Virus record (IMG/VR): IMGVR_UViG_3300010374_000004
Location: 1 to 36,148 of that record
Reading direction: 5' to 3' (one strand)
From: a virus
DNA: 36,148 nucleotides
Shown here: piece after piece, positions 2,928-6,600 of the stretch
Numbering within the stretch: the stretch's first letter is position 1
How the letters are laid out: the number at the start of each line of letters is the position of its first letter
Notes under the pieces: model-generated
Databases searched by the model: none
The model's input: the letters and a program-made list of their open reading frames with translations, nothing else
What the model was told of the DNA's origin: nothing
Position numbers and translations under genes: made by a program

Positions 2928-3248
2928 TCATTGCTTCCTCCTCACAACGCCGCCCAGTTCCCGGGCGCGCTGCATTGCACGCAGGTAGTCGCCCGGCAGA
3001 TCCGGGTCGAACTCGTGGACGATGCGGTTGCGCTGCGGCAGCACTCGCACACGCTCACTCGGTGAGCCAGTGACAAGGCCCATGCCATCGGCCTTGTTGG
3101 CCGGTGCTGCCTTGAGCCTGGCGACCTGGGAACGAAGCTCGTCGTTCTCCAGCGCCAGCACGTCGCACTTCGTGCTGAGTTCGTCGCAGTGGCGACGCAG
3201 CACATCCAGCTCGGCCGCCATCTCGGCCTTGGTCACGGTCTTGCCCAT
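2928..3248 (-). CDS. Hypothetical coiled-coil protein (106 aa)
   Basis: A 106-residue protein starting MGKTVTKAEM, with an AGGAGAG site upstream of the ATG. Residues about 10-47 show a regular heptad pattern (LDVLRRHCDELSTK, LENDELRSQVARLK) typical of a parallel coiled coil or leucine-zipper-like dimer. The C-terminal half is basic and more loop-like (RVRVLPQRNRIVHEF, RARELGGVVRRK). A small dimeric nucleic-acid-associated or adaptor protein is possible, but no DNA-binding motif is identifiable. Confidence 0.75.
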   Translation of the reverse strand: MGKTVTKAEMAAELDVLRRHCDELSTKCDVLALENDELRSQVARLKAAPANKADGMGLVTGSPSERVRVLPQRNRIVHEFDPDLPGDYLRAMQRARELGGVVRRKQ

Positions 3249-4213: not shown

Positions 4214-4816
4214 ATGCCAGCCAAGCAAGTCCGACCCCCAGACAAGACGCGCGGCGCCGCTGTGCGTGCAGTCGCCCGCGAGACCACGACCATGGCCGCC
4301 GCGGCGCTGGTGCCCGTGGACAAGCCGCTCACGGAGATGCAGAAGGCCTTCGTGAAGTACTGGGCCGAGGGTGAGTCGATCACCACTGCCATGCACCGCG
4401 CCGGCTACAACGAGCAGCCCAGCTACGGCTACCGCATGGCCAAGATGCCCAACATCCGCGCCGAGTACGACCGGATCAAGGCCCGCTTCGAAGAAGCCGC
4501 CCAGATGACCCGCAAGAAGGTCATGGACATGCACATCGAGGCCTACGAGATGGCCAAGCTCATGGCCGAGCCGGCCACGATGGTGTCAGCCGCCCGTGAG
4601 ATCGGGCGCATGTGCGGCTACTACGAGCCCGTGAAGCAGAAGATCGAGGTGTCCGTCAACGGCCAGGTCGTCCACAAGAAGCTGGAGACCCTGGACACGG
4701 AGGACCTCATCAAGATGGTTGCCGAGGGCATGGCCGCGATCCAGGCGGCCGAAGCCATGGCGCTCCCCAACCCCGACGACCCTGATGGCGAGGAATCCGA
4801 TGATCACAACGTCTGA
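4214..4816 (+). CDS. terS: Terminase small subunit
   Basis: A 200-residue protein. Small terminases bind the packaging site on phage DNA and recruit the large subunit. Residues about 38-75 (PLTEMQKAFVKYWAEGES, ITTAMHRAGYN) match the N-terminal helix-turn-helix pattern of terminase small subunits, followed by a helical oligomerisation-like region with repeated charged residues and VSAAREIGRMCGYYEP, a typical sequence in this family. The acidic tail (DDPDGEESDD) could contact TerL. The ATG at 4214 has only a GAGG two bases before it, so the spacing is poor and a near-leaderless transcript from the TAGAAT element is possible; a second ATG occurs at residue 27. Its position immediately before terL supports the call. 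Confidence 0.85.
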   Translation: MPAKQVRPPDKTRGAAVRAVARETTTMAAAALVPVDKPLTEMQKAFVKYWAEGESITTAMHRAGYNEQPSYGYRMAKMPNIRAEYDRIKARFEEAAQMTRKKVMDMHIEAYEMAKLMAEPATMVSAAREIGRMCGYYEPVKQKIEVSVNGQVVHKKLETLDTEDLIKMVAEGMAAIQAAEAMALPNPDDPDGEESDDHNV

Positions 4817-5054
4817 TGGCCTCCAGTACAAAGACGCGCTCCACGTCCTCCTCGACAAGCCGATCGAAAACGCGCGCAACCGCGAAGTCCGCAAGCTCCG
4901 TGAAGAAGGGCGCAGCGAAGACTTCATCCGCGTCTGGATCGAAGGTTGGGAGAACGCAGGCCCCGGCCCCGTCTCCGCGAAGCGCCGCTGGTGGTGCGCC
5001 CTTGCGTGGGTGCGCGCCCGCAGCCCCTCCAGCGCCAGCAGCGCCCAAGCCTGA
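4800..5054 (+). CDS. Overlapping small protein between terS and terL (84 aa)
   Basis: An 84-residue ORF starting MITTSDGLQYKDALHV. GAGG lies seven bases before its ATG, a better ribosome site than that of the overlapping TerL start at 4816. Its first 55 or so residues look like ordinary protein (LLDKPIENARNREVRKL, EDFIRVWIEGWEN) and its codons end mostly in C or G, as in neighbouring genes. The last 25 residues (from SAKRRWWCALAW) look less natural, and beyond this point the TerL frame becomes convincing. It is either a true small gene overlapping an N-terminal extension of TerL, or the 5' part of terL joined by a +1 frame change. Function unknown. Confidence 0.55.
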   Translation: MITTSDGLQYKDALHVLLDKPIENARNREVRKLREEGRSEDFIRVWIEGWENAGPGPVSAKRRWWCALAWVRARSPSSASSAQA

Positions 5055-6600
5055 CCCCAAGGTCCTGGCCGCCCAGGTCGAGCTGGCCCAGCGCATCCTG
5101 GCCAAGCGCCACCTGATCCCGTTCACGCAGCGCATCAACCCCCGCTACAGCGCCGGCTGGGTCCATCAGGACATCGCCCGGCGCCTGGAGCGCTTCTCGC
5201 GTGAGGTCGCCGAGGGCAAGAGCCCGCGCCTGATGATCCTGATGCCCCCGCGGCACGGGAAGTCGGAGCTGGCCAGCCGCATGTTCCCGGCCTGGCACCT
5301 GGGGCACTACCCCGAGCACGAAATTATCGCCTGCTCGTACAACGTGTCGCTGGCCATGTCCTTCAGCCGCAAGGTCAAGGAGGTGCTGGTCGACCCGAGC
5401 TACCAGAGCGTCTTCACCACCCGCCTGCACCCTGACTTCCAGGCCAACGAGGAGTGGGGCATTGCCGGCACGCGCGGGGGCTACGTGGCCGCCGGCGTGG
5501 GCGGCGGTATCACGGGTAAGGGCGCGCACGTCCTGCTCATCGACGACCCGATCAAGAACGCCGAGGAGGCAGACAGTGCTGATGTCCGCGAAAAGCTGTG
5601 GGACTGGTACGGCTCGACTGCTTACACGCGTCTTGCACCTGGTGGCGGCGTCCTCGTCATCCAGACCTGGTGGCATGACGACGACCTGGCAGGCAAGCTC
5701 CAGACCGCCATGGCTTCTGACCCCGAAGCCGACCAGTTCGAGATCGTCAAGTACCCCGCCATCGCCGAGCACGACGAGTACCTGGACGACGAGACGGACC
5801 TGATCGTCTATGACGAGCCGCCGGCGTCGGGCCGGATGCTGCGCAAGAAGGGCGAGGCCCTCCACCCGGAGCGCTACGACCTGGTCAAGCTCAACCGCAT
5901 CCGCAAGACGATCCCGAACCGCTTCTGGGCCGCCCTGTACCAGCAGAACCCGGTGCCTGACGACGGCGCCTACTTCACGAAGGAGCAGTTCCGCCAAGGG
6001 CCGCTGCCGCCGCTCAAGCGCGCCAACGTCTACGTGGCTTTCGACTTCGCCATCAGTGAGAAGAAACACAACGACTACACCGTCGGATCGGTCGGTCTTC
6101 AGGACGAAAACGACATCCTGCACGTCGCCGACATGGTCCGCTTCAAGAGCGGCGACGCCTTCTTCATCGTTGAATCTATCTTGAATCTTTGCCAGAAATG
6201 GTATAGTCCGAACCTGATCTTGGGCATGGAGGACGGCCAGATCTACCGCGCGATCGAGTCGCTTCTGAAGAAGCGCATGCGAGAGCGGAAGTTCTATCCG
6301 TCCGTCGTGCTCTTGAAACCCATCACCGACAAGCAGGCCCGAGCCCGACCGCTCCAAGGCCGTATGCAGCAGGGGATGGTGAGCTTCGCTGAAGGTGCTG
6401 GGTGGTACGACGCCGCTCGCACGGAGATGCTCCGATTTCCGACCGGCGTGCACGACGACCAAGTCGACTCGCTGGCCTGGATGACGACCATGGCGGTGGG
6501 TCGAGAGCCACCCCGAGCACAGCAGGCGAAGCCAATGAAGTCGTGGAAAGACAAAGTCCGGAGTCTGATGGGTGGTGGCGGCAGCCACATGACCGCGTGA
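4816..6600 (+). CDS. terL: Terminase large subunit, ATPase and nuclease
   Basis: The packaging motor: the N-terminal ATPase drives DNA into the procapsid and the C-terminal RNase H-like nuclease cuts the concatemer. Numbered from the ATG at 4816, Walker A is PPRHGKS (144-150), Walker B VLLIDDP (239-245), and likely metal-binding acidic residues are D410 (AFDFAIS), D473 (GMEDGQ) and D547/D548 (HDDQVDS). The family-like sequence begins only near residue 80 (PDPKVLAAQVELAQ). The first 60-70 residues are an unusual Ser/Thr/Lys/Ala-rich run with poor third-position C/G preference, read opposite the 84-residue ORF, so the true start is uncertain (TTG near 5002 is an alternative). The ATG at 4816 overlaps the terS stop as TGATG. 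Confidence 0.92.
   Translation: MASSTKTRSTSSSTSRSKTRATAKSASSVKKGAAKTSSASGSKVGRTQAPAPSPRSAAGGAPLRGCAPAAPPAPAAPKPDPKVLAAQVELAQRILAKRHLIPFTQRINPRYSAGWVHQDIARRLERFSREVAEGKSPRLMILMPPRHGKSELASRMFPAWHLGHYPEHEIIACSYNVSLAMSFSRKVKEVLVDPSYQSVFTTRLHPDFQANEEWGIAGTRGGYVAAGVGGGITGKGAHVLLIDDPIKNAEEADSADVREKLWDWYGSTAYTRLAPGGGVLVIQTWWHDDDLAGKLQTAMASDPEADQFEIVKYPAIAEHDEYLDDETDLIVYDEPPASGRMLRKKGEALHPERYDLVKLNRIRKTIPNRFWAALYQQNPVPDDGAYFTKEQFRQGPLPPLKRANVYVAFDFAISEKKHNDYTVGSVGLQDENDILHVADMVRFKSGDAFFIVESILNLCQKWYSPNLILGMEDGQIYRAIESLLKKRMRERKFYPSVVLLKPITDKQARARPLQGRMQQGMVSFAEGAGWYDAARTEMLRFPTGVHDDQVDSLAWMTTMAVGREPPRAQQAKPMKSWKDKVRSLMGGGGSHMTA

Follow-up and report, generated by a model that had tools for sequence, protein, structure and literature searches.

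A small gene of a new family very probably nested in the beginning of a phage terminase large-subunit gene

Two genes on the same strand very probably share positions 4816-5054 of the window, by which we mean the whole 36,148-base virus record analyzed here: a small gene belonging to a new family, and terL, which appears from sequence comparison to be read through it in the +1 frame (Table 1). The alternate frame of the overlap encodes a conserved protein, and the TerL frame is also constrained. Loci of relatives are designated by L-numbers.

Table 1. Features of the terminase locus in the window
Feature	Position	Strand	Basis
terS, terminase small subunit	4214..4816	+	Pfam Terminase_2 (E 1.3e-8); PHROG 51 (E 3e-12)
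Likely ribosome-binding site (GAGG) for the nested gene, 6 bases 5' of ATG 4800	4790..4793	+	sequence; Shine-Dalgarno scan
Nested small gene, 84 codons, ATG 4800 to TGA 5052-5054	4800..5054	+	leave-one-out profile; AlphaFold2; alignments
TGATG, terS stop overlapping TerL start	4814..4818	+	sequence; arrangement recurs in relatives
terL, terminase large subunit, full length from ATG 4816, 594 codons	4816..6600	+	Pfam Terminase_6N; PHROG 38; codon-constraint tests
Dual-coding stretch in which a Ser/Thr/Ala/Pro/Lys-rich TerL tail, presumably disordered, overlies the small gene	4816..5051	+	shuffle and codon tests
Pro/Ala-rich linker in TerL that is probably the older tail (compare non-nested relative L003)	5002..5070	+	alignment; composition

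Re-reading of the sequence bore out the coordinates that the initial annotation had assigned to terS, the 84-codon ORF, the GAGG upstream of it and the TerL frame, as well as the TTG at 5002 in the TerL frame. The terminase domains matched by TerL are PF03237 (Terminase_6N, E 4.9e-16) and PHROG 38 (E 1.4e-109), and a match to PF17289 (E 0.0017) falls below the cutoff of that family. Alignment of TerL to its relatives begins at about residues 79 to 90, in keeping with the earlier remark that homology starts near residue 80. Codon-position composition is that of an ordinary gene in the small frame from 4816 to about 4995, with GC at positions 1/2/3 of 0.75/0.20/0.85 over 4816-4875 (the third-position pattern had been described correctly), and in the TerL frame only after about 5056. 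The TGATG overlap of terS stop and TerL start is found in 10 of 16 nested loci, with ATGA, AATGA or GTGA in most of the others.

TerL-based scans yielded 80 viral and 5 bacterial-genome loci, with further loci added later. In the -1 frame upstream of the TerL core, a small ORF recurs across these loci and follows the pattern FDPxAxFxxxDGLxYEDxAxxLxGxPxxCxRNxxIxxxxxxGRxExxxxxWxxxYD. There are 17 nested copies in 16 loci (the window, L001, L002, L005 (twice), L006, L011, L013, L019, L031, L034, L036, L037, L041, L073, L081 and L268), all in the identical relative frame. A leave-one-out profile recovers the window ORF with an E value of 1.7e-12 among 22,533 ORFs and the other members with values from 3e-4 to 5e-25; the small ORF of L268, which lay outside the training set, scores 1.3e-10. 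The family came to light only via the alternate frame of TerL relatives: the 84-residue ORF used as a query found no relative in viral contigs, the best E value among 50,697 phage records being 0.4, and the 13-row family alignment is too diverged for a pattern scan. No member was found in 393 and 369 bacterial genomes, an absence that is uninformative since only part of the candidates was scored. One relative also carries four un-nested paralogues (L041:1087-2818), located upstream of terS and in the terS-terL interval, several of which overlap head to tail by 4 bases.

The alignments place the conserved domain at residues 1 to about 52 of the small protein, and residues from about 65 to 84 are probably only run-on. 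AlphaFold2 predicts a beta-hairpin plus helices, with pLDDT of 93-97 for residues 1-50. Sequence searches of Pfam, PHROGs, NCBIfam and the PDB gave no convincing match for the family, and structural searches with the predicted model gave a best E value of 1.5 (PDB) and 0.84 (BFVD) by Foldseek and a best Z score of 4.3 by VIA-align. Searching PDB sequences also returned myosin matches (best E 0.011) that span 37 residues of a single eukaryotic family; these were judged to be chance. By eye, the domain recalls the NUMOD/IENR DNA-binding module of homing endonucleases, a likeness that is unsupported, with no Pfam match up to an E value of 10. Neither the window protein nor the scanned members matched any HNH family in Pfam, PHROGs or NCBIfam, and a His-Asn-His pattern is not conserved in the alignment.

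The openness of the TerL frame in the window by itself is unremarkable: the probability that it stays open given the small protein is 0.88 under permutation of the gene's own synonymous codons and 0.75 if codons are sampled according to the usage of the TerL core. The significance therefore comes from the homologues and from codon choice. All 17 overlaps are open, with a joint probability of about 10^-15 under TerL-core codon usage; the corresponding value is only about 0.03 when codons are permuted within each small gene, because that codon set is already biased. Leu/Val NTG codons account for 2/178 in the overlap versus 822/1319 in TerL cores (p 2.5e-64), and A-ending Glu/Lys/Gln codons for 176/254 versus 211/1370 (p 1.7e-65), pooled values that overstate independence because the 17 small genes are related. 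This bias runs opposite to that of the TerL core, in the same direction in every locus. In the window alone, NTG codons are 1/11 versus 38/73 (p 0.009) and, over the first 62 codons, A-ending codons are 7/12 versus 14/83 (p 0.004). Through this codon choice in the small gene, TerL-frame triplets that would otherwise read as stop, Trp, Cys or Arg become codons for Ser, Thr, Ala, Pro and Lys; the TerL tails hold 166 Lys against 30 expected, 0 Trp against 49, 3 Cys against 41 and 0 stops against 23. The initial annotation had treated the Ser/Thr-rich run by implication as a low-complexity artefact; this was wrong, as the Ser/Thr/Ala/Pro/Lys composition is itself selected.

Foreign codon usage does not account for the bias, as two comparisons indicate. 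Within L041, NTG codons number 24/57 in the four non-nested paralogues and 0/19 in the nested copy (p 3.5e-4), and A-ending codons 13/55 and 19/27, respectively (p 8e-5). The small-ORF codons lying upstream of the TerL start, few as they are, show NTG at 4/4 (p 4e-7) and A-ending codons at 2/12 (p 4e-4).

The bias thus sets in at the TerL start codon, which bears on the possibility, raised in the initial annotation, that the small gene alone is genuine in 4816-5000 and that TerL begins at TTG 5002 or nearby, its upstream frame being an unread shadow. A GGTG lies near this TTG, in the close TerL relative L003 the tail is short and possibly starts from a TTG, and an open TerL frame in the window alone is what chance would give. 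We nevertheless regard so late a start as quite unlikely, given the constraint that already begins at the upstream ATG, the openness of all 17 overlaps and the sequences of L005, L036 and L081, in which a scan for ATG, GTG and TTG found none of these codons between the upstream TerL ATG and the core. Because the bias begins there and these three loci offer no other such start, the most likely TerL start is 4816, next to the stop of terS, with the frame continuing through the nested gene. In about 15 related phage lineages, selection appears to act on both frames.

The converse, that only TerL is real and the small ORF is a shadow of its Ser/Thr/Ala/Lys-rich tail, draws on the tendency of low-complexity NCN codons to keep neighboring frames fairly open, and we consider it extremely improbable. 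Synonymous shuffling of the TerL tail (16 genes, 300 shuffles each) never reached the observed profile score, which argues that the small ORF is no such shadow; in the window the small frame stayed open in only 25/300 shuffles and the profile score was lost, with a maximum of 18.4 bits compared with 48.4 bits for the actual ORF. Moreover, the position of the TerL start relative to the small domain varies among relatives, lying at the DG motif (the window, L001, L002 and L268), at the FDPHA motif (L005 and L006) or upstream (other loci), so that conservation of the domain is no by-product of a conserved TerL tail. The same family also exists un-nested in L041.

A +1 frame change, programmed or due to a sequencing indel, that joins the small ORF and TerL into one protein would suit the handover of ordinary composition from the small frame to the TerL frame, which looks like one shifted gene, but it is scarcely credible: relatives have separate starts and SD-like sites, with a TerL ATG (in L041 a GTG) close to where the small ORF starts in 16/16 loci; the small-ORF ends are unrelated, lying 89 bases before the core in L006 and about 196 bases inside it in L002; L005 has two tandem small ORFs within one open TerL frame; a fusion would leave no need to keep an unread TerL frame open and Lys-rich; and independent contigs show the same arrangement, so a sequencing indel is not the cause. 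Among the three explanations that the initial annotation had set in competition, it is thus the true same-strand overlapping pair that the homologue profiles and the codon constraint in both frames support.

The nested gene is patchily distributed among 81 TerL cores; a quick tree requires no fewer than 8 gains or losses, compared with 15.6 for shuffled labels. The TerL tail has a median length of 112 codons in nested loci and 17.5 in others. The close relative L003, 83% identical to the window across the core columns, lacks a nested gene, and its TerL tail is short and Lys/Ala/Pro-rich. We infer that the small gene once lay between terS and terL, and that the terL start would then have moved upstream to the preceding stop, with terL running through the small gene. 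A basic tail may predate the nesting, because L025, L056, L064 and L076 have Ala/Lys/Pro/Ser/Thr-rich TerL N-terminal tails in loci where no nested gene was detected. The close pairs L011/L012 and L033/L034 each differ by a single base in the overlap, which is too little for a substitution test.

Other departures from a plain TerL were seen among the relatives. In L218:2453-5023, TerL is broken by an intein-like insertion (CLPAGT...VHN) that holds a 255-residue, Cys-rich, HNH-like ORF in a different frame, from near 3186, a possible second out-of-frame gene in TerL. L084:3992-6589 and L059:2710-5310 have an in-frame LAGLIDADG-like intein at the TerL Walker A motif (PPR(S/H)GK...HNSE), and an Rfam intron search of these two loci gave no match. 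A Cys-rich, zinc-ribbon-like N-terminal extension replaces the low-complexity tail in L072, L074, L080, L085 and phiR18 (L290:2156-2500).

In the arrangement we propose, the small gene would be translated from its own Shine-Dalgarno site, GAGG, and ATG 4800, and TerL would initiate at TGATG, probably by termination-reinitiation coupled to the terS stop. Sequence statistics show that both frames are constrained, and both are probably translated in vivo. TerL would thereby gain a long, presumably disordered basic tail ahead of its ATPase/nuclease core, which probably serves as a soluble, Lys-rich extension that is tolerated and varies in length with the nested gene. Given that the family was found solely at the terminase locus in the whole records searched, we speculate that the small protein is probably a packaging accessory working with TerS/TerL, a guess that we hold less firmly than the overlap itself.

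Same-strand overlapping or nested phage genes are well known, for example in phiX174 and in lambda Rz/Rz1, where likewise two proteins are encoded in two frames of one strand with constrained codon choice; unlike in those cases, here a new small family lies in the TerL N-terminal tail, in several lineage-specific arrangements. The TerL of Pseudomonas phage phiR18 (Kochitakasuvirus), an annotated relative, has a homologous core and an N-terminal extension that overlaps the end of terS, but this extension contains Cys (CSKC...CLSC) and no small-family gene is nested in it. The phiR18 gene before TerL (L290:1465-2175, presumed terS) starts with a long Thr/Lys-rich repeat (MARTTKTATKVTKTATK...), which resembles the TerL tails in flavor. 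A further parallel is the ShiLan-type element, an out-of-frame HNH endonuclease gene in a phage methylase gene whose own frame stays open (PMC11855218). The two share an inserted alternate-frame gene, an open host-gene frame and a patchy distribution, whereas the nested terL family shows no detected HNH or other nuclease family, sits at the TerL N-terminus instead of mid-gene, is confined to one locus in the searched records and overlies a host-frame tail under strong selection for composition.

The open-access literature yielded no account of this small family, nor of any conserved gene lying within terL; the family and the nesting site thus appear to be new, nested phage genes as such being known. 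Gene callers usually keep a single frame where two overlap, a possible reason why a family present in 16 loci is missing from Pfam, PHROGs and NCBIfam. The nested and un-nested paralogues of L041 provide a natural within-genome control for the effect of dual coding on codon choice. Terminase genes, which are widely used phage markers, can bear long overprinted tails, and these deserve separate treatment in phylogeny and annotation. More tentatively, and more probably wrong than right, the nested family could represent an unrecognized third terminase component in a group of uncultivated phages, in which terL would repeatedly extend upstream to the preceding stop and make the region dual-coding for motor and accessory.
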